Assembly (NCBI GenBank): GCA_902603625.1 | Contig: CACKVM010000003.1 | Span: forward strand, 1 to 59,551 | Source of the DNA: an uncultured Pelagibacteraceae bacterium | Lineage (GTDB): Bacteria; Pseudomonadota; Alphaproteobacteria; Pelagibacterales; Pelagibacteraceae | Reading direction: 5' to 3' | DNA length: 59,551 bases | Part shown: positions 47,845 to 59,551 of the stretch, piece by piece | Layout: the number at the start of each line of letters is the position of its first letter | How positions within the stretch are numbered: position 1 is the stretch's first letter | The notes under the pieces: generated by a model | The model's database searches: none | Seen by the model: the letters and a program-made list of their open reading frames with translations, nothing else | Told to the model about the DNA's origin: nothing | Translations under genes and position numbers: made by a program

Positions 47845-48399
47845 TTAGTTTATTTCTATGGTTCCTATAATATTAAAATTCTTATCAGAAACAACTATTT
47901 CACCTGAAGATGGGGCATAATTTAAAACTTCAGATATTAAAACGTAATGTGTTACGAAAACTAAATTTTCATTACTCTCAAATTTATTAACATATTCTTT
48001 TAGCTGTTTAATTTGTTTTTTTTTGTTAAGAGCATATTTAGGACTATAAAATGAATTTAAAAAATTATTTGTAGAATAGTCTTTAAAAGCAATTTTTGCT
48101 GTTTCTTTACATCTACACCACTCACTAGATAAAACTTTATCTATCTTAATTTTATTTTTTGTAAAAAAAATACCGATATATTTTGCTTGATTTTTTCCAC
48201 TCTCACTTAAATTCCTTTGAGTAGAACAATCGTTTAAATTGAAATTATTTGGGTCACCGTTTCCAGGTGCATATGCATGTCTAATAAATATTATTTTTTT
48301 ACCATCCTTGAGTTGATTTATTAATTTTTTATTTAAATCTGCTTTAATAGATGTGGTTAAAGATATAAACAATATAAATAAGAATTTTAAAAATTTCAT
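47845..48399 (-). CDS. Exported histidine phosphatase family protein
   Basis: A 184-residue protein with a signal peptide (MKFLKFLFILFISLTTSIKA) and the phosphoglycerate-mutase-like phosphatase fold: IIFIRHAYAPGNGDP with catalytic Arg40-His41, an Arg in SSEWCRCKETAKIAF, and the second His in FVTHYVLISEVL. The RHA variant of the RHG motif is common in periplasmic members. Probably hydrolyses a phosphate ester or polyphosphate in the periplasm; the substrate is unknown. Its start codon is 2 bp from that of the divergent glycosylase gene. A promoter candidate (TTGTTT at 48435-48430, TCTAAT at 48413-48408) lies inside the glycosylase gene. Confidence 0.85.
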   Translation of the reverse strand: MKFLKFLFILFISLTTSIKADLNKKLINQLKDGKKIIFIRHAYAPGNGDPNNFNLNDCSTQRNLSESGKNQAKYIGIFFTKNKIKIDKVLSSEWCRCKETAKIAFKDYSTNNFLNSFYSPKYALNKKKQIKQLKEYVNKFESNENLVFVTHYVLISEVLNYAPSSGEIVVSDKNFNIIGTIEIN

Positions 48400-48401
48400 A
48401 T

Positions 48402-49082
48402 ATGGACATTAGAATAAATAATTTAAACAAAACAATAGTTAACTGTAAAAAATGTCCAAGACTTGTTAAATTTATCAACAAAGTAAGTACACAAAAAAGA
48501 AAACAAAATATACATGAAGATTATTGGGGAAAACCTGTTCCAGGTTTTGGAAGTTTAGAGTCAAAATTAGCTATAATTGGACTTGCGCCTGCCGCACATG
48601 GTGGAACTAGAACTGGAAGAGCATTTACTGGAGATAAATCAGGGGATTTTTTATTTAAATGTTTATATGAAGTCGGTATTTCTAATTATCCATTTTCAAA
48701 AAATTTAAACGACAATCTTAAATTAAAATCAACATATATCACAAATATTCTTAAATGTGTGCCCCCTGAAGATAAACCACTAAGTGAAGAAATTTCAAAT
48801 TGTTCTAATTTTTTTGATAAAGAAATATTATCTTTAAAAAAACTTAAAGTAATAGTTACATTAGGAAAGATAGCTTTTGATAATTGTATTAAACTATATA
48901 AACAAAAACTTAATATCAAAAAAAAATTTGTATTTAAACACGGTAAAACTCAAATATTACCAAATGGTTTAATAATTTTATCGAGTTATCACCCTAGCCC
49001 CCGAAATGTAAATACAAAACTAATTTCAAATAAAATGATGATCAATTTATTTAAAAAAGCAAAAAAATTAGCTAAGTTTTGA
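48402..49082 (+). CDS. Uracil-DNA glycosylase, family 5 (UDGb) type
   Basis: Removes uracil and related deaminated bases from DNA. The 226-residue protein has motif A GLAPAAHGGTRTGRAFTGD (residues 60-78) with Ala instead of the catalytic Asp of family 1, and motif B SSYHPSPRNVNTK near the C terminus, both diagnostic of family 5. Cys15 and Cys18 (CKKCPRL) with cysteines in KCVPPEDKPLSEEISNCSNF are likely ligands of a [4Fe-4S] cluster. The 3' end overlaps the convergent thioesterase gene by 11 bp. The A/T-rich genome makes cytosine deamination relevant, but no SOS box precedes the gene. Confidence 0.92.
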   Translation: MDIRINNLNKTIVNCKKCPRLVKFINKVSTQKRKQNIHEDYWGKPVPGFGSLESKLAIIGLAPAAHGGTRTGRAFTGDKSGDFLFKCLYEVGISNYPFSKNLNDNLKLKSTYITNILKCVPPEDKPLSEEISNCSNFFDKEILSLKKLKVIVTLGKIAFDNCIKLYKQKLNIKKKFVFKHGKTQILPNGLIILSSYHPSPRNVNTKLISNKMMINLFKKAKKLAKF

Positions 49083-49494
49083 TAGTATCACAAAAATATG
49101 GTTTAAATTTTGTATATATCTCATCTGGAATTCTAATTGGTTTTCCTTCTTTGCTTACAAATACTAAATGAACCTGGGCCTCTACAATAGTTTTTTCTCC
49201 TTTTGTGATTATTTGATTCATAAAAAAAGAAGTCTTAGTAATTGATTTAACAAAAGATCTAATAGTTAGTTCATCTTCTAAATAAGCTGATTTTTTATAT
49301 TCAATATTACATGATTTAACTATTATTAATGAATTAAACTTTTCTTGGATTTTTTTATTACTAAATCCTATTGAAAATAAAGCTTCAGTTCTAGCTCGTT
49401 CTAAATACTTTAAATAATTTGCGTAATAAACTATACCGCCTGAATCTGTATCTTCATAATAAATCTTCAATTTATAAAAGAAATTTTCATGCAT
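49072..49494 (-). CDS. ybgC: YbgC-type acyl-CoA thioesterase
   Basis: A hot-dog-fold thioesterase of 140 residues with the signature YYEDTDSGGIVYYANYLKYLERARTEAL, whose Asp is catalytic. YbgC is usually encoded with tolQRAB, but here it stands alone between the glycosylase and a DUF3047 gene, so a different 4-hydroxybenzoyl-CoA-thioesterase-like role is possible. The gap to the upstream DUF3047 gene is 16 bp, so the two may be co-transcribed. Confidence 0.85.
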   Translation of the reverse strand: MHENFFYKLKIYYEDTDSGGIVYYANYLKYLERARTEALFSIGFSNKKIQEKFNSLIIVKSCNIEYKKSAYLEDELTIRSFVKSITKTSFFMNQIITKGEKTIVEAQVHLVFVSKEGKPIRIPDEIYTKFKPYFCDTIKT

Positions 49495-49510
49495 ATATAA
49501 TTATATCAAA

Positions 49511-50161
49511 TTACTCTGCTGAAAAATAGATATTCTGGTAATACGCTACTGCCTTCATTTTAGAATTGTCAGTATCCGACATAATAGCCAAACCATCTAA
49601 TTCATTTACGTCTAAATTGTGAAATTTCTTAAAATCATCTTTAACGTTTGCTTTTACTGTTACCCACTCATTAAAGTTATTTTTTGTCGTAGCTAATACA
49701 TAATCTACTGATTTTTTTGTGTATGGGCTTGGCCAATTTAACCCTATATCGCTATTACTTGAAAAAACATAATTAATTGCTCTATTTGAAAGTGGTGTTG
49801 CACCTGTTTTTTTTACTGCAAAGACTCTGGCTGCAAAATCATGACCTTTTTTAGTGTCTTCTTTTATGCCAGACAAATCTTTCTCAACTTTCCATGTAAT
49901 ATTAATGAAAGGTGTTTTATTTAAATCAATTTTAATTTCTTTACCAAGACCCGAGGCTGCGTTTTCGGCAACTGACTTCAAAAAATTACCATTTTCATTG
50001 ATACCAACGGTATATATAGTTTTATTATCTGCCCCCCTTACCTTTCTTACCTCAAGCTTAGAAAGCTCAGTCTCTGTAAAATCGAAAACACTTATTTCAT
50101 CGGCTAACGAGTTGACAGTAACTATAAGTAACCCTACTAAAATTTTAAATAAAAGTTTCAT
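49511..50161 (-). CDS. DUF3047 family exported protein
   Basis: A 216-residue protein with a signal peptide (MKLLFKILVGLLIVTVNSLA) and a domain fitting DUF3047: INITWKVEKDLSG, GHDFAARVFAVKKTGAT, AINYVFSSN and a C-terminal DGLAIMSDTDNSKMKAVAYYQNIYF that resembles a carbohydrate-binding jelly-roll. Function unknown, periplasmic or outer-membrane associated. First gene of a likely pair with ybgC. Confidence 0.8.
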   Translation of the reverse strand: MKLLFKILVGLLIVTVNSLADEISVFDFTETELSKLEVRKVRGADNKTIYTVGINENGNFLKSVAENAASGLGKEIKIDLNKTPFINITWKVEKDLSGIKEDTKKGHDFAARVFAVKKTGATPLSNRAINYVFSSNSDIGLNWPSPYTKKSVDYVLATTKNNFNEWVTVKANVKDDFKKFHNLDVNELDGLAIMSDTDNSKMKAVAYYQNIYFSAE

Positions 50162-50193
50162 AAATATTTATAAAAAATTCTTAATACATTATT

Positions 50194-50222
50194 TTGACAA
50201 GATTTAAACATCCAAATATCAA
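50194..50222 (+). promoter_or_regulatory. Candidate sigma-70 promoter
   Basis: A perfect TTGACA (50194-50199), 17 bp, then TATCAA (50217-50222). It points rightward toward the small secreted frame at 50245 and lies in the short gap upstream of the leftward DUF3047 gene. The predicted start near 50229 supports ATG 50245 over ATG 50224. Confidence 0.4.
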
Positions 50223-50244
50223 TATGTGTCCCTATAACATAATT

Positions 50245-50382
50245 ATGAAGACAATATCTATTTTTATACTCCTAATCTATTGGTCAATAATGATTTTTGC
50301 TCCTGTTATGTCTAAAGATTTTAAGTTAAGCCGAGCAAAAATTAACAAGGTCAAAATAATAGAGCCTAAATATCCTAGTTAA
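50245..50382 (+). CDS. 45-residue small secreted or membrane protein
   Basis: ATG 50245 to TAA 50380-50382. Residues 1-22 (MKTISIFILLIYWSIMIFAP) form a hydrophobic helix or signal peptide; the rest is short and basic (KDFKLSRAKINKVKI). A good -35/-10 pair lies just upstream. Its stop overlaps the convergent dehydrogenase gene by 4 bp. No family recognised; could be a signal-anchored miniprotein or a chance frame. Confidence 0.4.
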   Translation: MKTISIFILLIYWSIMIFAPVMSKDFKLSRAKINKVKIIEPKYPS

Positions 50383-51131
50383 TAAGTTGAACGCCCACCA
50401 CTAATATCAAAGACAGCAGCTGTGGAGAATGTATTTTCCTCAGACGAGAGCCAACATACTAATGAAGTGAATTCTTCAACCTCTAAAAATCTTCCTCGAG
50501 GGACTTTTGAAAGCATTCTTTGAACATGTTCTTTTGTCATTTGATCTAAAATTCGGGTTTTAGCACCTGCTGGTGTAATAGCGTTTACAGCTATGTTCTT
50601 ATCTGCAAGCTCTTTTCCAAGTGATTTTGTCAACCCAATAGCGCCTGCTTTACCCGCACTATAAGCACTAGCATATGCATTTCCATCTTTTCCAGCAACT
50701 GAGGCAACATTAACTATTCTGCCATAATCATTTTTTATCATATTGGGTACCACTGCTTTGCAACAATTAAAAGTACCCATTAAATTTATTTCTACAACCT
50801 TTTTCCAATTATCAAGGTTATACTCCCACAAAGATGCTGTTGGTCCAGTTATACCGGCATTATTTATTAAAATATCTATTTTATCTTTTTTTGCTATTTC
50901 CTTAATAGAATTTTCTACTTCTTGAAAATTTGTTACATCTACAACATTAGTACTTAAATTTGGACTATTTAAATCATTAGCTGCTTTTTCTAGCATCTTC
51001 GTATCTATGTCCCAAATTATTACTTTTGCACCTGATTTTAAAAATCTTTTGGCAATATCAAATCCAAAACCTTGGGCACCACCTGTCACTAAAGCTGTTC
51101 TATCTTTGAAATTAAAAGTTATTTTATCCAT
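50379..51131 (-). CDS. Short-chain dehydrogenase/reductase (FabG-like)
   Basis: A 250-residue NAD(P)-dependent oxidoreductase with the Rossmann motif TGGAQGFG (residues 17-24), NNAG, and the catalytic Ser/Tyr/Lys in NVASVAGKDGNAYASAYSAGKAG. An acidic residue after the second strand (IIWDID) favours NAD+. It is the last gene of the TRAP/NCS1 operon (4 bp after the permease), so it likely oxidises or reduces the imported compound or a product of it, rather than serving fatty acid synthesis. Substrate not predictable. Confidence 0.85.
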   Translation of the reverse strand: MDKITFNFKDRTALVTGGAQGFGFDIAKRFLKSGAKVIIWDIDTKMLEKAANDLNSPNLSTNVVDVTNFQEVENSIKEIAKKDKIDILINNAGITGPTASLWEYNLDNWKKVVEINLMGTFNCCKAVVPNMIKNDYGRIVNVASVAGKDGNAYASAYSAGKAGAIGLTKSLGKELADKNIAVNAITPAGAKTRILDQMTKEHVQRMLSKVPRGRFLEVEEFTSLVCWLSSEENTFSTAAVFDISGGRSTY

Positions 51132-51135
51132 AAGA

Positions 51136-52593
51136 TTATTTTTTTGCTAAAAGATAATATAAAAATCCTGATACTCCAGATCCGATAATCCATGCATATG
51201 ATTGTAAGAACATTAAATTATTATTCCATATAGTAGATGAAGAAAATATAAATCCGATTATAATTGAATAGATTGCTTTTATATGCCAACCCTTTGAATA
51301 GCAAAATGAACTTTCGTAAGAAAATTTATGTAAATCTTTAATTTCTATTGTGGAATTATTTATCAAATAATAATTAATAACCATCACTCCTACCAATGGA
51401 CCAAAAAAAGATCCAAAGGTATCAATTAAAGATAAAATACCAATTTGACTTAACAAAGATGGCCAAAGAATGCCAATTATTAATCCAAAAAATCCAATTG
51501 TGAAGCTTACTTTTTTTAAACTTAACTTGTTAGGAATAAAATTTATAAGTGAATACTGTGAGGGTATAAAATTGGCTATTAAATTTGTTGATGCCGAGGC
51601 TATCACAATAAATAATAGACCAACAACAGTTAATTGTAGATTATCAAATTTCCCTATTATGTCTGTTGGATTTGTGAATATTCTTTCCATATCAGTAAAT
51701 TTTTGGTTGAGAAAAACATCTGTACCGGCAACAATGAAGACTGCAAAAAAAGAAAAAATAATTAAATTCAATAATAAACTTAAATTACCTTTTTTGAGTT
51801 GCTTTTCATCTTTTGTGTAACGAGAAAAGTCTCCAAAGCTAATTATAATTATTGAAAAATAAGCAAATATTGTTCCTGCTACTGTAAACAAAGGAGCTAT
51901 ATTTTTAGTATTCATAAAATTATTAAAGTTTAAAATTTGTGAAAATGCATTAGATGTAAGTTTTACATCTGTTAATAAAACTATTATGAAAAAAAATAAT
52001 AATCCTGAGTATACCATGACAGCTGAAAAATTTATGATTTTTTTATTAAAAACCATTCCTCTGCTAAAAAAATAAATTTGAAAAATAATACAAAAAATTA
52101 ATGATAACCAATCAATTATATTCATTCCTAATAGAAAAGTTAAAAATATTTCTTGTTCTAAAATATTTTTATCTATAGAAAAAATTAAAATTCTAATTAA
52201 ATATGTAACAGCTCTGGATAAAAAGTATGTTTGTATACCAAACATAAAAATTCCAATAAGACTTCTTAAAAATCCAAAGTACTTAGCTCCTTTGTATCCT
52301 ATAGAGGTTCTTAAAAAAGTGACAAAAGGAAGTCCATATTTTTGAGAAGGTTTCCCGATTAAATTGGAAAAAATATATATTAAAAAAGAACCCAAAATAC
52401 TTCCAAAAAAAACAACAAAAAAATTTAAATCATAAATGACATAAAGTGATGCTATTAAAGAAAAGCCAATAATACTTTGTACGTTTACTCCCCAAAAACA
52501 AAATAAATCTTTCCAGTCCCAATTTTTAGAATTAGGATTAACAGAAACTAATTCCCAATTAATTACATTTTCTTGGATTTTATTATTGTTCAC
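51136..52593 (-). CDS. NCS1-family nucleobase/cation symporter-like permease
   Basis: A 485-residue membrane protein with about 12 helices. The N-terminal WDWKDLFCFWGVNVQSIIGFSL and the KYGLPFVTFLRTSIGYKGA motif fit the NCS1 family (cytosine, uracil, hydantoin, allantoin, thiamine-type substrates, driven by Na+ or H+). It is 25 bp downstream of dctM and 4 bp upstream of the dehydrogenase, so it appears to be part of the same operon as a TRAP transporter, an unusual pairing. The substrate cannot be assigned by eye. Confidence 0.8.
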   Translation of the reverse strand: MNNNKIQENVINWELVSVNPNSKNWDWKDLFCFWGVNVQSIIGFSLIASLYVIYDLNFFVVFFGSILGSFLIYIFSNLIGKPSQKYGLPFVTFLRTSIGYKGAKYFGFLRSLIGIFMFGIQTYFLSRAVTYLIRILIFSIDKNILEQEIFLTFLLGMNIIDWLSLIFCIIFQIYFFSRGMVFNKKIINFSAVMVYSGLLFFFIIVLLTDVKLTSNAFSQILNFNNFMNTKNIAPLFTVAGTIFAYFSIIIISFGDFSRYTKDEKQLKKGNLSLLLNLIIFSFFAVFIVAGTDVFLNQKFTDMERIFTNPTDIIGKFDNLQLTVVGLLFIVIASASTNLIANFIPSQYSLINFIPNKLSLKKVSFTIGFFGLIIGILWPSLLSQIGILSLIDTFGSFFGPLVGVMVINYYLINNSTIEIKDLHKFSYESSFCYSKGWHIKAIYSIIIGFIFSSSTIWNNNLMFLQSYAWIIGSGVSGFLYYLLAKK

Positions 52594-52618
52594 ACTTTAG
52601 ATATTAAACTAATATTTT

Positions 52619-53953
52619 TTACTGTCCATATAAGAGAGTTGGAAGCCAAAGTGCAATTTTAGGAAATATAATGATTAAGACTAAGCCAAATACTTGTAGG
52701 ACCATAAATTGCATCATTCCATAATAAATATCTTTAAGATCCCACTCAGGTACTACTCCTTTTAAAAAATAGGCTGAAAGAGCGACTGGAGGTGAAAGCC
52801 AGGCGGTTTGTAAATTAACTGCAACAAGAATTGCAAACCATGTAAGATTAAATCCTAATGCTTCAATCAATGGTAATATTATTGGAACGATAATCATTAC
52901 AATAGGTACCCATTCTAACGGCCATCCTAATAAAAAAATCATCAACATTACCATTGCTAGAATCAAATATTTATTCATTTCTAATCCCAATAAAAATTCA
53001 GTAAGTAAAGTTGGTGTCCCTAATCTTGCAAAAACTGCACCAAAAAAATTGGATGCAGCAACTAAAACCATTATCAATGCAGTTATCTCAAGAGTTTTGA
53101 CTAATGCTTCTTGTAACTTTGGAAGAGTTAATTTTTTGTAGGCTAATGAAAGAAGTAAAGCACCCATGGCGCCACATCCCGCTGCCTCAGTTGGTGTAGC
53201 AAATCCAAATAATATACTTCCAAGAGCCGCAAATACTAAAGCTGCTGGTGGTACTAATCCTAAAAAAAATTCGACCCAAACATCTTTCATACTAGCTGCT
53301 CTCATATCTTCAGGTATTACTGGTCCAAGTTTAGGGTTAATCATACATCTAATTGTTGTGTAACCTGCATATAAACTTGCAAGGAGAATTCCTGGTAAAA
53401 TAGCAGCAGCAAATAAATCTATTACTGGGATTTCCATTATCGGCCCCATAACAACTAACATGATGCTTGGTGGAATTAATATTCCTAAAGTTCCGCCAGC
53501 AGTAATTGTTCCTGCCGCGAGTCTGACATCATAACCAGATCTGTTCATTGATTTGGCTGCCATAATTCCAAGAATTGTCACAGAAGCTCCAACAATTCCT
53601 GTTGCAGCAGCAAATATTACAGATACAAATAAAACTGCATAATATAAAGAACCTTTAACTTTCGCTAACATCATTTGAAATGCTGAAAACAATCTCTCCA
53701 TTAAGCCAGCTTGTTCCATCATAATTCCCATAAAAACAAAGAGTGGTACGGCGGCGAGTGTCTGTTCTGTCATAACCATAGAAAATTGGAGTGTCATTAG
53801 ATAAAAGACTAATTTTCCAAATCCTAAATAACCAAACACGAAACCTAAAAAGATTAATGTAAATGATATTGGAAATCCTACGAAGATTGCAAAAAGCATT
53901 ACACCAACAAGTATAAAACCTAAAATTGCTGGATCTATAAACTCAGCTATCAT
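52619..53953 (-). CDS. dctM: TRAP transporter large permease (DctM)
   Basis: Channel-forming membrane subunit of a tripartite ATP-independent periplasmic transporter. The 444 residues form about 12 helices, with VPLFVFMGIMMEQAGL, the conserved GTLGILIPPSIMLV and the C-terminal NLQTAWLSPPVALSAYFLKG motif. It overlaps dctQ by 4 nt. The closest recognisable type is the DctM of mannitol/chloroaromatic- or 2-oxo-acid-type systems. Confidence 0.95.
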   Translation of the reverse strand: MIAEFIDPAILGFILVGVMLFAIFVGFPISFTLIFLGFVFGYLGFGKLVFYLMTLQFSMVMTEQTLAAVPLFVFMGIMMEQAGLMERLFSAFQMMLAKVKGSLYYAVLFVSVIFAAATGIVGASVTILGIMAAKSMNRSGYDVRLAAGTITAGGTLGILIPPSIMLVVMGPIMEIPVIDLFAAAILPGILLASLYAGYTTIRCMINPKLGPVIPEDMRAASMKDVWVEFFLGLVPPAALVFAALGSILFGFATPTEAAGCGAMGALLLSLAYKKLTLPKLQEALVKTLEITALIMVLVAASNFFGAVFARLGTPTLLTEFLLGLEMNKYLILAMVMLMIFLLGWPLEWVPIVMIIVPIILPLIEALGFNLTWFAILVAVNLQTAWLSPPVALSAYFLKGVVPEWDLKDIYYGMMQFMVLQVFGLVLIIIFPKIALWLPTLLYGQ

Positions 53954-54564
53954 TTAGTTTCTCCTGGCCACTCACCTTTTCTAGCTGCCCAATAACTTTT
54001 GAGTAGTTCAGAAACTCCTTGGATAAGTAAAAAAATTATGCCAATAAGCAAACATGTTTTTATTGGCCACATATAAGGCATCCATGTAGTATCCATGCCT
54101 CTTTCACCTCTTTGAATTGACTCTCCAACAAATCCAATTGTCATATAAAGAAAAACAATTAGACCAGGAAAATAGAATAATAGATATAACCAAAAGTCTA
54201 TTAGACCTTGGTTTTTAGTTTTAAAATTTCTGTATAAAAAATCTGCTCTTATATGAACTCCTCTTGAAAGAGCATAACCAGCACCCAACATGAAGAGTGC
54301 TCCATATAAAAAACGACTTATGTCATATGCCCAAATTGTAGGAGCTAAAAATAATTTTCTTGCAAGAACTTCATAAGTCATAGCAAAAATTAATGGCATT
54401 AATATCCAACAAACAATATTACCAATCCACTTGCTAAATTTATCAATACTTGTGATTACTTTTGCCATCCATAATGGCATATCATCAGGCATTTTTCCCA
54501 AACCACCTCGCCTTTCGGCAATCATTTCATCTGATATGTCTAGTTTACTTGGTTCGTCTGCCAT
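53950..54564 (-). CDS. dctQ: TRAP transporter small permease (DctQ)
   Basis: Four-helix membrane subunit that pairs with DctM. The 204 residues have a polar N-terminal extension of about 40 residues (with MIAERRGGLGKMPDDMPLW) before the first helix, then the RFLYGALFMLGAGYALSRGVHIRADFLY signature typical of DctQ. It lies 71 bp after dctP, across a terminator hairpin. Confidence 0.93.
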   Translation of the reverse strand: MADEPSKLDISDEMIAERRGGLGKMPDDMPLWMAKVITSIDKFSKWIGNIVCWILMPLIFAMTYEVLARKLFLAPTIWAYDISRFLYGALFMLGAGYALSRGVHIRADFLYRNFKTKNQGLIDFWLYLLFYFPGLIVFLYMTIGFVGESIQRGERGMDTTWMPYMWPIKTCLLIGIIFLLIQGVSELLKSYWAARKGEWPGETK

Positions 54565-54585
54565 AAAAATTCTAGTATAAAAAAC

Positions 54586-54612
54586 TAGAGCGGACTGTAA
54601 AAGCCCGCTCTA
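54586..54612 (-). terminator. Intrinsic terminator/attenuator between dctP and dctQ
   Basis: On the - strand a 10 bp stem TAGAGCGGGC/GTCCGCTCTA with a 7 nt loop (TTTTACA), one G-U pair, followed by GTTTTTT. It sits 24 bp after the dctP stop and before dctQ. It would cut most transcripts after dctP and let a fraction read on into dctQM, raising binding protein over permease. Confidence 0.85.
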
Positions 54613-54635
54613 ATTAAATCAAGATTAATTACTGA

Positions 54636-55730
54636 TTACTTTAATGTTGCTGCGTGAGCCATTCCTAGCTTCGCATTAGACATTTGAGCACCACTCCAGA
54701 ATGGAACAGCTATGTCAGCAAATTCTTTCATCGAATTATAAACTTCGTTAAAGAATTTATTTTCAGCAGCGTTCTTGTTTAAAGAAGCTTTAGCTGCAGC
54801 CATATATTCTGTGAAATAATCAGAAGGTGTATCCTCTAAAATTACTCCATGTTTAGTAGTCAACTCTTGTAAAGCTTTTCCGTTTTCATAGATTCTGTAA
54901 CTTAAAGATTTAGCTAACGAAGCATTAGCTGCAACTTCAAGAGACTTCTTCTCATGATCACTCATTGCATTATAAGTTTTTCCAGTAATATAAAAGTCAG
55001 CATTTACGACTACTTGGTGTAGACCTTGTAAGTAATAGTGCTTCAATACTTTTTGGAAACCAAAAGTTAAGTCTGGCTTTGGACAACACCATTCAGCAGC
55101 ATCAATAGTTCCCGCTTCTAGAGCTGGAAGAATATCTCCGCCACCCATAGCAACTGATGCTATACCGATGTCTTTATAAGTTTGTCCTGGAATTCCTGGA
55201 GGAGTTCTAAACTTATATTTTCTAAAGTCAGCCATATCTTTAATTGGTTTTGGAAACCATCCTAAAGCTTCAGGTCCAACTGGTTGAATCATAAATCCTT
55301 TAATATCTCTTCCCATTTCTTTCCATAATTGGTCGTATAATTCTTTACCACCACCATATTGGAACCATGATAAGAAAGCGATATTATCAATACCTACACC
55401 ACCACCTGCTACTGGCGAACCAAATAACATTGCTGCAGGGTGATCTCCTGACCAATAGTGAGTCCATGCGAAACCACAATCAATCAAGCCTTTGTCAACA
55501 GCGTCTAAAGTTTCTTTGACACCAACAACAGCTCCAGCTGGTAAAATTTCAAATTTTAGAGATCCACCTGTTAGAGTTGTGACTGTATCAGTAAAGTCTT
55601 TTAACATCTTAACTTCATCTGCTTTCGTGTTAAGAACTGTCTGACATTTTAGTGTTTTTGCAGCATTAGCACTAGATGTAAAACCAAGTACTAAAATAGT
55701 TGCAAATAACATTGAAATGATTTTTTTCAT
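54636..55730 (-). CDS. dctP: TRAP transporter substrate-binding protein (DctP, TakP-like)
   Basis: Periplasmic solute receptor. The 364 residues start with a signal peptide (MKKIISMLFATILVLGFTSSANA). Of note are KFRTPPGIPG, whose Arg is the carboxylate-binding residue of DctP proteins, and AGTIDAAEWCCPKPDLTFGF, which resembles the ligand segment of TakP, the 2-oxo acid receptor of Rhodobacter. An organic (possibly 2-oxo or hydroxy) acid is therefore the best guess, but the CCP variation differs from TakP. A good ribosome-binding site (AGAGGAAA) precedes the ATG. Divergent from the GMC gene with 132 bp between. Confidence 0.93.
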   Translation of the reverse strand: MKKIISMLFATILVLGFTSSANAAKTLKCQTVLNTKADEVKMLKDFTDTVTTLTGGSLKFEILPAGAVVGVKETLDAVDKGLIDCGFAWTHYWSGDHPAAMLFGSPVAGGGVGIDNIAFLSWFQYGGGKELYDQLWKEMGRDIKGFMIQPVGPEALGWFPKPIKDMADFRKYKFRTPPGIPGQTYKDIGIASVAMGGGDILPALEAGTIDAAEWCCPKPDLTFGFQKVLKHYYLQGLHQVVVNADFYITGKTYNAMSDHEKKSLEVAANASLAKSLSYRIYENGKALQELTTKHGVILEDTPSDYFTEYMAAAKASLNKNAAENKFFNEVYNSMKEFADIAVPFWSGAQMSNAKLGMAHAATLK

Positions 55731-55786
55731 TATATTTCCTCTAGTTAGTTAAATTTAACGTAATCCATACAATCAGAAAAACAATG

Positions 55787-55802
55787 TTGACACAAGTGAC
55801 AA
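55787..55802. promoter_or_regulatory. Imperfect palindrome in the divergent dctP / GMC promoter region
   Basis: TTGACACAAGTGACAA reads as TTGaCAC-AA-GTGaCAA, symmetric about the central AA except at one position per arm. It lies in the only non-coding stretch (55731-55862) between two divergent operons and contains a TTGACA hexamer. This is the expected place for an operator of a regulator controlling both directions. No regulator gene is adjacent. Confidence 0.4.
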
Positions 55803-55862
55803 TTGATAAATATGAGTGTAAAAACTTTAAAAAACTAAAACTAAAAAAAAATTCAACTGCTA

Positions 55863-57473
55863 ATGGAAAATTTTGATTACATTATTATTGGAGCAGGATC
55901 TGCTGGCTGCGTTCTTGCAAATAGACTTTCTGCAAATCCATCAAATAAAGTTTTATTAATCGAAGCTGGTGGTAAAGATAATTATCCATGGATACATATT
56001 CCAGTTGGATATTTTAAAACTATGCATAATCCTAAGGTTGATTGGTGTTTTAAAACTGAACCTGATGAAACAATGAATAATAGATCAATAAGATATCCTA
56101 GAGGAAAAACTTTAGGTGGTAGCTCTTCTATTAATGGACTTTTATGGATTAGAGGTCAAAAAGAAGATTATGATGTATGGAGACAACTGGGTAATACAGG
56201 TTGGGACTGGGAAAATGTATTGCCGTATTTTCTGAAATCAGAGAATAATGAATTAGGAAAAAGTGAATTTCATAATGACAGTGGCCCAATTACTGTAGCT
56301 AATAAAAAAATAAATTTAAAATTACTAGATGAATTTCAAAATGCAGCTGAAGAATATGGAATACCTAAAACAAATGATTTTAATACTGGAGACAACTTTG
56401 GTGTAGGTTTTTTTCAATTCACTACAAGCTTTAATAAAGTAGGATTAAAACTTAGATGTAGTGCAGCTAAAGGATACTTAAATCCTGTTAAAAAAAGATC
56501 GAATCTAAAAATTTTAACTAAAGCACATGTTCAAAAAATAAATTTTGCAGACAAGAAAGCTTTAGGTGTTAATTATTTTATTGGAGAAAAGATTAATACT
56601 GTTAATGCAAATAAAGAAGTTATTTTGTCGGCAGGATCAATTGGATCTCCTCATATTTTACAGGTATCTGGAATTGGTGAAGTTAACAAACTAAAAAACT
56701 TAGGTATAGAAATAGTTCATAAATCAAATGGAGTTGGTAAAAATTTACAGGATCACTTAATGTTTAGACCAGTTTATAAAGTCAAAAATTTAAAATCACT
56801 CAATAGAAAAGTTGAAAGTTTATTTGGAAGATTTTTAATGGGACTTGAATATTTAGTTAATCAAAGTGGGCCAGTGACTATGGGGGCTAGTCAAGTTTGT
56901 GGGTTTGTTAAAAGTGATCCGTTGAGAGCTACTCCTAATTTACAATTTCATGTATCACCTGTGAGTACAGACATATTAGGTGTAACTCCGATGCATGACT
57001 TTGAAGGAATTACTCCAACTGTTGCAAATATTAGACCTACAAGTAGAGGTGAAATAAATATAGTTAGCAATGATAGTAGAATTTATCCCAAAATTAAGAT
57101 GAACTATTTATCTACAGATGATGACAGAAAAGTAGCAGCTCAAGGATTAAAAATTGTTAGAAAAATAATGTTAGAAACTGAAACATTCAAAAAATATGAG
57201 CCAGAGGAATATAGACCAGGAGTTCATATTACAGATGATGAAGAATTAGTTAAAGCAGGTTCAGATTATACTCAAACAATTTTTCATCCTGTTGGTACTT
57301 GCAAAATGGGACAGGATGATATGGCAGTTGTAGATGAAAAGCTTAGAGTAATAGGTATAAAAAATTTAAGGGTAATAGATGCATCAATCATGCCAAATAT
57401 TACCTCGGGTAATACAAATGCACCTACAATAATGATTGCGGAAAAAGGTGCAGATATGATACTTAAAAGTTAA
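55863..57473 (+). CDS. GMC-family FAD oxidoreductase (choline/alcohol dehydrogenase-like)
   Basis: A 536-residue flavoprotein with the FAD-binding motif GAGSAGC at residues 10-16, the GMC signature GKTLGGSSSINGLLWIRGQ, AGSIGSPHILQVSGIG in the middle and the C-terminal HPVGTCKMG with the active-site His. It oxidises an alcohol group; choline dehydrogenase and various alcohol dehydrogenases are the nearest types, and BetA proper cannot be claimed. Its stop overlaps the TerC-like gene by 1 nt (TAATG). Divergent from the TRAP operon, it may act on the imported compound. Confidence 0.9.
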   Translation: MENFDYIIIGAGSAGCVLANRLSANPSNKVLLIEAGGKDNYPWIHIPVGYFKTMHNPKVDWCFKTEPDETMNNRSIRYPRGKTLGGSSSINGLLWIRGQKEDYDVWRQLGNTGWDWENVLPYFLKSENNELGKSEFHNDSGPITVANKKINLKLLDEFQNAAEEYGIPKTNDFNTGDNFGVGFFQFTTSFNKVGLKLRCSAAKGYLNPVKKRSNLKILTKAHVQKINFADKKALGVNYFIGEKINTVNANKEVILSAGSIGSPHILQVSGIGEVNKLKNLGIEIVHKSNGVGKNLQDHLMFRPVYKVKNLKSLNRKVESLFGRFLMGLEYLVNQSGPVTMGASQVCGFVKSDPLRATPNLQFHVSPVSTDILGVTPMHDFEGITPTVANIRPTSRGEINIVSNDSRIYPKIKMNYLSTDDDRKVAAQGLKIVRKIMLETETFKKYEPEEYRPGVHITDDEELVKAGSDYTQTIFHPVGTCKMGQDDMAVVDEKLRVIGIKNLRVIDASIMPNITSGNTNAPTIMIAEKGADMILKS

Positions 57474-58066
57474 TGTTCGTTGATTTATTCACACCTGAAC
57501 AAATAACTATCTTAACTCAAATAATCTTAATTGATCTTGTTTTAGCAGGAGACAATGCAATCATTATTGGGATGGTTGCATCAAAATTTCCTCCAGAGCA
57601 AAAAAAAAAGATTATTTTTTGGGGAATAGGCGGAGCTGTAGTTTTAAGAATAATTTTAACTTTACTTACAGCTTATTTACTTCAAATTACTGGCTTAAGA
57701 TTAATTGGTGGACTTTTATTACTTTATATAATTTATAAGCTTTATGTAGATGTAATAAAAGGTTCAAATCAAGAGAGTGATATTAATGTTGATAATTCAA
57801 GTTTTTTAAAAGCAATTTGGACTATTTTATTAGCTGATTTTACGATGAGTCTCGATAATGTTTTAGGTGTAGCTGGAGCGGCAGGTGACCATTATTATTT
57901 ATTAATTTTTGGTCTTATTTTATCAATAGTGTTAATGGCAACAGCTGCTACTTTAATATCCAGCTGGATAAAAAAATATAAATGGATAGCGTGGGCTGGT
58001 TTATTAGCAATATTACTTGTTGCTATTGAGTTGATTTACACAGATATTAAAATATTATTTTTATAA
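57473..58066 (+). CDS. TerC/YjbE-family membrane protein
   Basis: A 197-residue integral membrane protein with about seven helices and the two family motifs: LIDLVLAGDNAIIIGM near residue 24 and LADFTMSLDNVLGVAGAAG near residue 125, each with acidic and Asn residues thought to bind a divalent metal. Members of this group have been linked to Mn2+ export. No yybP-ykoY riboswitch is visible upstream; the gene is embedded in the GMC-led operon by 1 nt overlaps on both sides, unexpected for a metal exporter. Confidence 0.85.
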   Translation: MFVDLFTPEQITILTQIILIDLVLAGDNAIIIGMVASKFPPEQKKKIIFWGIGGAVVLRIILTLLTAYLLQITGLRLIGGLLLLYIIYKLYVDVIKGSNQESDINVDNSSFLKAIWTILLADFTMSLDNVLGVAGAAGDHYYLLIFGLILSIVLMATAATLISSWIKKYKWIAWAGLLAILLVAIELIYTDIKILFL

Positions 58067-58833
58067 TGTTTTTAAAAAAATATAACCTCAAAAATAAAAC
58101 TGCAGTTGTCACTGGAGCAGGAAAAGGTATTGGAAGAGCTTGCGCGATAGCATTAGCAGAAGCAGGAGCACATCTCATAATCATAAGCAGGACTAGAAAA
58201 GATTTAGATGAAGTGTCAAAAAAAGTAAGAAAATTTAAATCTAAATGTAAATCATTTGTTTGTGACATTACAAATTACAATGAAATCAAAGATATTATTA
58301 ATAAACAAGATAGAATAGATATTTTAATTAATAATGCAGGTAATAATATTCCTGAACACTTTACAAAAGTAAAAACAAAAAACATGGAATATCTAGTTAA
58401 GATAAATACTATAGCAACTTTTAACCTCGCACAATTGTGTGCCCTTAAAATGATAAAAACAAAGAATAGAAAAAAAATTGGTGGTGCAATTGTCAATATG
58501 TCGTCTCAAATGGGTCATGTGGGTGGACCAATAAGAAGTGTATATAATATGACAAAATTTGGTTTGGAGGGGCTTACAAAAGGTATGTCTATTGATCTTG
58601 CTAAATACAACATAAGAGTGAACACTGTATGTCCAACATTTGTTGTAACCCCTATGACAAGTAAATTTCTAAAAAGTAAAAAATTCAAAAACGAAGTCTT
58701 AGGTAATATACCACTTGGTAGATTTGCCGAGTTATCTGATGTAGCCTCAGCTGCTGTCTTTTTAGCATCAGATGCCGCTTCAATGATAAGCGGAACTTCA
58801 TTATTGGTTGATGGTGGATGGACTGCAAAATAA
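58066..58833 (+). CDS. Short-chain dehydrogenase/reductase
   Basis: A 255-residue NAD(P)-dependent oxidoreductase with TGAGKGIG at residues 17-24, NNAGNN, catalytic Ser in NMSSQMGHVGGP and Tyr/Lys in YNMTKFG, and a GTSLLVDGGWTAK C terminus. Second dehydrogenase of the region; it follows the TerC-like gene with a 1 nt overlap and could take the aldehyde or ketone formed by the GMC enzyme, though this is only contextual. The M23 peptidase gene starts 16 nt inside its end. Confidence 0.87.
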   Translation: MFLKKYNLKNKTAVVTGAGKGIGRACAIALAEAGAHLIIISRTRKDLDEVSKKVRKFKSKCKSFVCDITNYNEIKDIINKQDRIDILINNAGNNIPEHFTKVKTKNMEYLVKINTIATFNLAQLCALKMIKTKNRKKIGGAIVNMSSQMGHVGGPIRSVYNMTKFGLEGLTKGMSIDLAKYNIRVNTVCPTFVVTPMTSKFLKSKKFKNEVLGNIPLGRFAELSDVASAAVFLASDAASMISGTSLLVDGGWTAK

Positions 58834-59551
58834 TAAATAAATATTTTTTTTGTATAATTTTCTTTTTTACTACACAAATTAACGCTTTAGAATTTAAGGG
58901 AAAGTTTTTACAAGGACACTATATCATTGGAATGACAGATTCATCTGCGAAGATATTCATTGATAAAAAACAAGTTAAAGTCTCAAAAGATGGATATTTT
59001 GTATTCGGTATCGATAGGGATAGAAAATACGATTTAACAATTACTAAAATTGTAGGTAAGGATAAAAAAAAAATAATTAAAAAGATATTAAAAAGAAAAT
59101 ATAACATTCAAAGGATTGATGGTTTAGAAGAAAGTAAAGTAACACCTCCTGAATCTGTGTATAAAAGAATCAAAGAGGAAAATAATAAAATTGGAGAAGC
59201 AAGAGCAATTAATTCAGATCTACCTTTTTTTAAGAATCAATTCATAATGCCAGTAGAGGGTATCATTAGTGGAGTTTATGGGAGTCAAAGAATATTAAAT
59301 GGTAAACCTAAATGGCCTCATTATGGAATTGACATTGCTGCGAAAAAGGGGACCAAAATCAAATCTGCAGCAACCGGCGTAGTAACAATGGCTGAGCCAG
59401 ATCTGTATTATACAGGTGGAACGATTATCATGGACCACGGTCATGGCATTTCAACTATATACTCACATTGTGCCACTATAAACGTTAAAGTTGGTGACGA
59501 AGTCCTACAAGGAGATGTTATTGGTACTGTTGGTTCTACTGGAAGATCTAC
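58818..59551 (+). CDS. M23 family peptidase (5' part, cut by window end)
   Basis: Starts at ATG 58818 inside the dehydrogenase gene and is still open at the window end (about 244 residues visible). The product has a signal peptide (MDCKIINKYFFCIIFFFTTQINA), a non-catalytic N-terminal domain with charged segments to about residue 145, and a LytM/M23 domain: HYGIDIAAKKGTK with the zinc His and Asp, DHGHGISTIYSHCA with the further His residues, and KVGDEVLQGDVIGTVG. Likely a cell-wall endopeptidase or a scaffold of one. Its place at the end of a metabolic operon is probably incidental. Confidence 0.9.
   Translation, partial: MDCKIINKYFFCIIFFFTTQINALEFKGKFLQGHYIIGMTDSSAKIFIDKKQVKVSKDGYFVFGIDRDRKYDLTITKIVGKDKKKIIKKILKRKYNIQRIDGLEESKVTPPESVYKRIKEENNKIGEARAINSDLPFFKNQFIMPVEGIISGVYGSQRILNGKPKWPHYGIDIAAKKGTKIKSAATGVVTMAEPDLYYTGGTIIMDHGHGISTIYSHCATINVKVGDEVLQGDVIGTVGSTGRS

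Follow-up and report, generated by a model that had tools for sequence, protein, structure and literature searches.

The locus described here raises a question of gene control, namely what in a gap of 132 bp would govern the two operons that diverge from it. The window, by which we mean the whole analysed stretch of 59,551 nucleotides (contig CACKVM010000003.1 of an uncultured Pelagibacteraceae bacterium), carries dctP, the gene of a TRAP solute-binding protein, head to head with the gene of a GMC-family flavin oxidoreductase. A first-pass annotation pointed to an imperfect palindrome within the gap, TTGACACAAGTGACAA, as a possible means of co-regulating nine divergent genes. SAR11 has few regulators, which makes a coupling of neighbouring operons by promoter geometry plausible. 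In this work, we compare the gap among its relatives in the genus and conclude that this streamlined SAR11 genome probably packs two divergent promoters into it, with -35 regions that abut or overlap, and that it is an ordinary regulatory region.

Gene content and layout of the dctP/GMC locus

The open reading frame coordinates place the start codon of dctP at 55730 on the minus strand and that of the GMC gene at 55863 on the plus strand, in agreement with the gap as first described. The nine genes comprise five to the left and four to the right:

50379-51131, minus strand: short-chain dehydrogenase/reductase (SDR), left side (PF00106, PF13561)
51136-52593, minus strand: NCS1-family permease (PF02133)
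52619-53953, minus strand: dctM, TRAP large permease (PF06808)
53950-54564, minus strand: dctQ, TRAP small permease (PF04290)
54636-55730, minus strand: dctP, TRAP solute-binding protein (PF03480, 96.1 bits)
55731-55862, unstranded: divergent dctP/GMC intergenic control region (132 bp; 109-152 bp in the 116 distinct gaps of relatives)
55863-57473, plus strand: GMC-family flavin oxidoreductase (PF00732, PF05199; under the cut-off of all 8 matched NCBIfam models)
57473-58066, plus strand: TerC/YjbE-family membrane protein (PF03741; TIGR03717 over cut-off)
58066-58833, plus strand: SDR, right side (PF13561, PF00106)
58818-59549, plus strand: M23 peptidase, cut by the window end (PF01551)

The adjacent DctP, DctQ and DctM domains, each over its cut-off, identify a TRAP transporter of the DctPQM type. 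By sequence, the best PDB matches of DctP are the ketoacid-binding TRAP proteins 7ug8 and 2hzk/2hzl, the latter known as TakP; the likeness is partial, covering residues 50-310 and 50-339, and implies no substrate for DctP. The oxidoreductase is a member of the GMC superfamily, and its identification as the choline dehydrogenase BetA was rejected at 484.8 bits against the TIGR01810 equivalog cut-off of 732.1. The choline dehydrogenase cluster treated in the accessible portion of PMC12421898 is another one.

The gap had been taken for the only non-coding sequence serving the nine genes, which it is not. Neighbours among the four right-hand genes overlap by 1-16 bases, and on the left there are further gaps of 71 bp between dctP and dctQ (54565-54635), 25 bp between dctM and the NCS1 permease gene (52594-52618) and 4 bp between the latter and the SDR gene, the first of which holds a strong hairpin followed by a T-run. 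The idea of a complete uptake-and-oxidation module is weakened by the content of the right operon, which includes a TerC-family membrane protein and an M23 peptidase.

The G+C content of the window is 22-34% per 2-kb bin. A permissive Rfam search of positions 55000-56500 gave five matches, all under their gathering scores and with E-values of 0.21 or worse, and so no known RNA element. As separate observations, the NCS1 permease is far more variable among relatives (48-80% identity) than the adjacent dctM (94-99% among close relatives), and locus L048 has two tandem SDR genes, 2331 and 3107 bp past the dctP start, where the window has one; they are 64% and 61% identical to the window SDR at 58066-58833.

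Conservation of the divergent arrangement

A close relative of dctP (E <= 1e-120) is present in 290 of 399 genomes searched in the genus, and DctP identity reaches 99% among named Pelagibacteraceae loci. The comparison set consisted of 141 loci, namely the window, 60 stretches that we selected, and 80 named loci, the best 80 of 586 and thus biased to near relatives; the genomes of the two sets partly overlap. Loci L001, L002 and L004-L032, mostly the same places as L033-L092, stand outside this set, so that L025 (normal gap) and L021 (cut) are uncounted, and L173-L200 are outside the analysis. Direct divergent neighbourhood of dctP and the GMC gene was found in 136 of the 141 loci, whose gaps reduce to 116 distinct sequences; the one in L073 is 111 bp long. 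The gaps were also collapsed to 27 dissimilar clusters under 75% identity. The head-to-head order and the narrow range of lengths support the earlier view of the gap as a control region shared by two divergent units, and show it to be conserved. Adjacency alone carries little information, because gene order across the whole block is largely conserved anyway. Among relatives, the ends of the gap vary by insertions and deletions.

The remaining five loci (L053-L057) represent a sister TRAP clade with DctP 62-63% identical, in which other genes intervene and the GMC gene lies 5.8-7.9 kb from dctP. The genes before their dctP read as a hydroxyisobutyrate-type dehydrogenase, an aldehyde dehydrogenase and an SDR, according to translations from three of the five loci. 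Two of them, L055 and L057, encode a Pfam-recognized HxlR-type regulator between dctP and the GMC gene (genomes G024 and G006, with G004, G005 and G031 negative). The earlier claim that there is no local regulator stands for the 13 window open reading frames scanned at 47845-59549, which are without a Pfam regulator match, and fails in two of the five related-clade loci. No HxlR gene was found in the assembly to which the window belongs (68% complete), and in three other genomes (G321, G012 and G106) HxlR is encoded far from dctP.

Symmetry and conservation of the central palindrome

The palindrome lies in the gap as follows:

55787-55802, unstranded: imperfect palindrome TTGACACAAGTGACAA (pattern in 6 of 116 distinct gaps; chance-level symmetry; not kept as a palindrome)

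Six of its eight arm pairs match. Among 2000 shuffles of the gap that preserve dinucleotides, 16-mers of equal symmetry occur 0.97 times on average, and 62% of shuffles contain at least one; a further demand for at least three G-C pairs lowers this to 1.4%, under a condition set after the sequence had been seen. The gap itself has a second 16-mer of equal symmetry, which overlaps a perfect 12-bp palindrome, GTTAAATTTAAC.

Footprinting across relatives found the palindromic pattern TTGnCACnnGTGnCAA in 6 of the 116 distinct gaps and in a single one of the 27 dissimilar clusters. The carriers are L003, L101, L104, L125 and L162, all exact, and L109 with one inner change; within a narrower set of 56 gaps the pattern occurs once. 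A search of the window's own, 68% complete assembly returned no second copy of TTGACACAAGTGACAA at 0-1 mismatches and one at two mismatches. Across 101 genomes, three have the pattern, two of them at dctP and one elsewhere. The two arms differ in their conservation: the left one is variable (45-78% per column, with CTGAC as the commonest form), and the right part, ACAAGTGACAA, is constant (73-100%). Mean arm pairing over the 116 gaps is 4.25 of 8, against 3.95 with the arms reshuffled and with none of 2000 shuffles as high, a slight rise that relatedness alone can produce. Neither conservation of both arms nor copies before other genes were thus found for a shared operator, and the part that is conserved is asymmetric, as fits a promoter. 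Such a lack of conservation is one of the two outcomes, with a lack of co-expression as the other, that the first-pass annotation itself had named as refuting its reading.

Predicted promoters of the dctP/GMC gap

The promoter elements that we propose on the two strands, and the dctP ribosome-binding site, are the following:

55790-55795, minus strand: proposed dctP -35 hexamer TTGTGT, part of the invariant CTTGT at 55792-55796 (CTTGT in 116 of 116 gaps; hexamers all begin with TTGT; the same box at ftsH)
55767-55775, minus strand: proposed dctP extended -10, TG at 55775-55774 plus hexamer TTGTAT at 55772-55767 (17 bp from the -35, a spacing that is fixed among the gaps)
55738-55742, minus strand: dctP ribosome-binding site AGAGG (columns 88-97% conserved)
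55796-55801, plus strand: proposed GMC -35 GTGACA (option 2), abutting the dctP -35 (81 of 109 close gaps)
55819-55824, plus strand: proposed GMC -10 TAAAAA (option 2), 17 bp from GTGACA (TAAAGA, TAAAAA, TAAAAG or TAAATA in 72 of 109 close gaps)
55811-55816, plus strand: alternative GMC -10 TATGAG (option 1; found in 48 of 109 close gaps), with TTGACA at 55787-55792 as its -35 and a spacing of 18 bp

On the dctP strand, CTTGT occurs in all distinct gaps, compared with about 13% in shuffles of the 56-gap subset. It is followed by TG at exactly 16 bases in 112 of 116 gaps, and any other offset between 8 and 47 gives TG in at most 74. The hexamer one base past TG always ends in T, the commonest forms being TTGTAT (51 gaps), TTGAAT (20) and GAGGAT (10), and both features persist across the dissimilar clusters (TG in 26 of 27, final T in 27 of 27). 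A TTG-containing -35 and a -10 hexamer at a spacing of 16-18 bp are what a sigma-70-type promoter has, and TTGTnn, 17 bp and TG-n plus a hexamer is the predicted geometry of an extended -10 promoter. Against this reading, the two commonest -10 hexamers are without the usual A at position 2; the extended TG is present. In the part of the Sinorhizobium meliloti study available (PMC3616915), a -35 class with TTG only is attributed to RpoD. A plain scan with the sigma-70 consensus finds no promoter in the gap, and at 50100-59551 it gives 42 hits against 50.2 in shuffles, so that in this AT-rich DNA it has little power.

The proposed reading is that a sigma-70-type promoter would transcribe dctP from the TTGT -35 (55795-55790) through the 17-bp spacer and the extended -10 (55775-55767), with a predicted start near 55760. 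The GMC gene would be read in the opposite direction from a weaker and less conserved promoter, starting near 55823 or 55831. Among the 109 closer gaps, option 1 for this strand pairs TGACA with TATGAG at 18 bp. The two candidate GMC promoters cannot be told apart, and both would place the -35 against or over that of dctP. The GMC side is the less certain one, because GTGACA remains in 10 of the 27 dissimilar clusters. We read TTGACACAAGTGACAA as the putative meeting point of these opposed -35 regions and not as an operator.

An RpoH promoter at dctP was tried and rejected, as none of the 116 gaps fits CTTG-N16..20-CTATAT or CTTG-N16..18-CYTAT. The pattern CTTG-N16..18-CYTAT fitted none of 23 groES loci of the genus and was widened from the groES sequences for the second comparison with dctP. 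These loci (a 24th, L281, is without a start and was excluded) have CTTGAA followed by C(T/A)(A/T)TAT in 23 of 23, and CTTGT within 130 bases upstream in none.

A box common to dctP and ftsH

A box of the form (C)ACTTGT also stands before ftsH, identified by TIGR01241, in 29 of the 30 genomes analysed (regions L229-L258). There, CTTGT is found in 30 of 30 regions, ACTTGT in 29, CACTTGT in 24 and TTGnCACTTGT in 15; the dctP gaps have CACTTGT in 95 and TTGnCACTTGT in 82 of 116. The C of CTTGT falls 35-40 bases before the ftsH ATG in 29 of the 30 regions as measured (in L229, where CTTGT occurs twice, the second copy was taken), and TATTTT, TATCTT, TAATTT or TACTTT follows at a 16-bp spacing in 28. 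At such a short distance from the start codon, the box can hardly be anything other than a -35 or something that overlaps one, and this favours a -35 role at dctP as well. The two genes share this upstream box and not the -10, since ftsH is without TG at the dctP offset in all 30 regions; a shared activator, though rather unlikely, would also fit. With a fit to CTTG-N17-CYTAT in 18 of the 30, RpoH may have a role at ftsH.

The longer sequence TTGTCACTTGT occurs at 43 places in 61 genomes, compared with 14 for the reversed control, and by coordinates 15 of the 43 are at dctP. The other 28 comprise 18 inside open reading frames of at least 100 amino acids and 10 outside, of which 8 are the ftsH site and 2 are L206 and L228. 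TTGnCACTTGT was found at 59 places in 31 genomes (11 for its reversed control), 7 of them at dctP and 13 before ftsH. Ten of the other 39 belong to the TTGTCACTTGT set already described (9 in open reading frames, with L206 outside), and the additional 29 are in open reading frames without exception (29 of 29). Because the other sites are nearly all inside open reading frames, dctP and ftsH are the only recurrent non-coding sites among the places examined.

Alternatives to a pair of divergent promoters

The reading that prompted this work, by which TTGACACAAGTGACAA would co-regulate both operons as the common operator of a dimeric regulator whose gene lies elsewhere, now appears very improbable. 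It can draw on the position of the sequence in the middle of a conserved divergent region, on the good conservation of its half ACAAGTGACAA among close relatives and on the raised arm pairing, though kinship could explain the latter. Against these stand the rarity of the whole palindrome among the gaps and their dissimilar clusters, the few further copies in the own assembly and in 101 genomes, and the situation at ftsH, where the conserved half occurs alone, without the mirror half. A somewhat better candidate for an operator, albeit still an improbable one, is the second palindrome, with which a repressor would block the dctP start and act on the dctP side only:

55748-55759, unstranded: perfect 12-bp palindrome GTTAAATTTAAC, shortly past the predicted dctP start site (64 of 116 gaps have it unchanged; not enriched elsewhere over a control pattern)

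It is better conserved than TTGACACAAGTGACAA and keeps a near-fixed distance from the promoter and the start codon; a looser form occurs in 108 gaps at 35-37 bases from CTTGT, with an outer pair that is G-C in 73 and T-A in 15. In the sister TRAP clade, a different palindrome, TTATTAAGwCTTAATAA, occupies roughly this position in all five loci, directly ahead of the ribosome-binding site of dctP. Genus-wide, however, GTTAAATTTAAC is hardly commoner than its reversed control (34 against 28 places in 61 genomes with one strand counted, 14 of the 34 at dctP), which gives no sign of a regulon. Its inner letters vary, it is very AT-rich, and as an RNA hairpin it was rejected at -0.8 kcal/mol (z 0.18).

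Of the alternatives, the one that we find least implausible, while still rather unlikely, takes TTGnCACTTGT as the site of a global activator or an alternative sigma factor that serves both dctP and ftsH, with the dctP core promoter further downstream, at the TATAAT-like box of 55748-55759. The conserved block is asymmetric and could be such an activator site; its excess over the reversed control includes both the dctP and the ftsH places, its full form recurs in half of the ftsH and most of the dctP regions, and in 15 of the 116 gaps TTATAATTAAC, a good -10, stands in place of TTAAATTTAAC. However, dctP and ftsH are not joined by any third recurrent non-coding site among the places examined, a promoter further downstream would find no space at ftsH, and the RpoH pattern that fits all 23 groES loci is absent from the dctP gaps. 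The divergent promoter pair remains the reading that we prefer.

A terminator-like hairpin between dctP and dctQ

The 71-bp gap that separates dctP from dctQ contains the following element:

54583-54615, minus strand: intrinsic-terminator-like hairpin of 14 pairs followed by a T-run (z -4.6 for its folding)

It folds at -20.4 kcal/mol, compared with -8.9 for shuffled sequences, and a stem of at least 6 pairs with a T-run is kept in 100 of the 107 distinct dctP-dctQ gaps. In some relatives, pairs have changed on both sides of the stem (U-A to A-U, G-C to A-U and C-G to A-U). The element has the form of an internal intrinsic terminator, a GC-rich stem-loop with a U-tract between the two genes. 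In a wider scan, terminator-like hits as a class were no commoner than in shuffles (5 against 4.6), and therefore the weight of this hairpin rests on its stability and conservation.

Given a conserved terminator-like hairpin directly after its gene, DctP is probably expressed in excess of DctQM; by partial termination, the hairpin would set the level of the binding protein above that of the permease genes. Internal terminators that set an excess of binding protein are described for ABC importer operons of Clostridia in the available part of PMC9045158, where a stem-loop likewise follows immediately on the gene of the binding protein, ahead of those of the permease. The present case differs in that the transporter is of the TRAP type, the host is an alphaproteobacterium and termination is predicted from the sequence.

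Variation of the GMC gene beside a near-constant TRAP operon

Next to a control region and a TRAP operon that hardly vary, the GMC gene is exchanged between about ten allele types. These were defined on the 108 of the 141 loci with complete dctP, dctM and GMC genes, identical triples being taken once. Single linkage at 85% sorts the adjacent GMC genes into 10 types, and the six commonest of these have mean identities to one another of 61-81%. Among 1276 pairs of loci with DctP at least 97% identical, GMC identity is below 80% in 462, while DctM is at least 90% identical in all of them; TerC, available for 1125 of the pairs, is at least 80% identical throughout. On a tree of dctP and dctM, the types change at least 24 times, compared with a possible minimum of 9 and with 36 as the lowest of 200 label shuffles, and thus they follow the tree partly and not wholly. 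The cleanest case is that of L050 and L052, which are 95 and 94% identical in the two control-region bins, 60-79% between 200 and 1800 bp past the dctP start, and 85-100% in the rest of the alignment.

The sequences around the active-site histidine and the GNTN motif are alike when one member per type is compared, with small differences in types 4, 6 and 8, so that no change of chemistry need be assumed. Named records stand on both sides of the variation (L101 with GMC at 95.5% and L109 with GMC at 73.2%, both with DctP at about 98%), which makes an assembly artefact unlikely as a general cause. Conversion by a paralog was rejected: the sole paralog found (E <= 1e-50) is distant, at 41-43% identity, and present in 4 of 11 genomes, and the variation therefore looks allelic. 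We offer it as a tentative idea, more doubtful than likely, that the control region and the TRAP genes form a fixed expression dock for repeatedly exchanged GMC alleles, through which populations with one uptake system would carry different oxidases under the same control.

Discussion

According to the accessible text of PMC4469952, divergent pairs account for about 25% of E. coli genes, and the gap between dctP and the GMC gene resembles the ordinary promoter pairs between head-to-head bacterial operons described there in its shortness, its opposed promoters and the possible coupling by supercoiling; it differs in that neither neighbour is a regulator. Likeness to the bidirectional promoters of Warman et al. 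lies in divergent transcription from a short stretch, where one polymerase could exclude the other. In the part of that work available (PMC12825309), such promoters have a pseudo-symmetrical sequence and start sites that are most often 18 bp apart, with 10 and 23 bp also common. A bidirectional promoter in this Warman/Grainger sense, with a shared symmetrical core, was rejected here: the predicted starts are 63 or 71 bp apart and the -10 boxes are not shared, so that, in the terms of the same text, dctP and the GMC gene would have separate divergent promoters.

Two polymerases could not easily occupy the abutting -35 regions of dctP and GMC together, and we infer that the two operons would be linked by occlusion, by supercoiling or by both rather than by a dedicated repressor. 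Shared control of the two operons through the geometry of their predicted promoters is thus possible, and nothing here points to a coupling beyond the ordinary. Among the best literature matches listed, none was by its title on this locus or on SAR11 promoters. The genes SAR11_0864/0865 appear in a sulfur-limitation table in the available part of PMC5069961 and in an intergenic-region table in that of PMC2704228; these tables would bear on the locus only if the two genes are orthologs of those described here.

What this analysis changes is the assignment of the gap: a candidate operator is removed and a promoter assignment put in its place, for a transporter with a close relative in most of the genomes searched in the genus. 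If the assignment is true, the promoter box common to dctP and ftsH would provide a handle on promoter recognition in SAR11.
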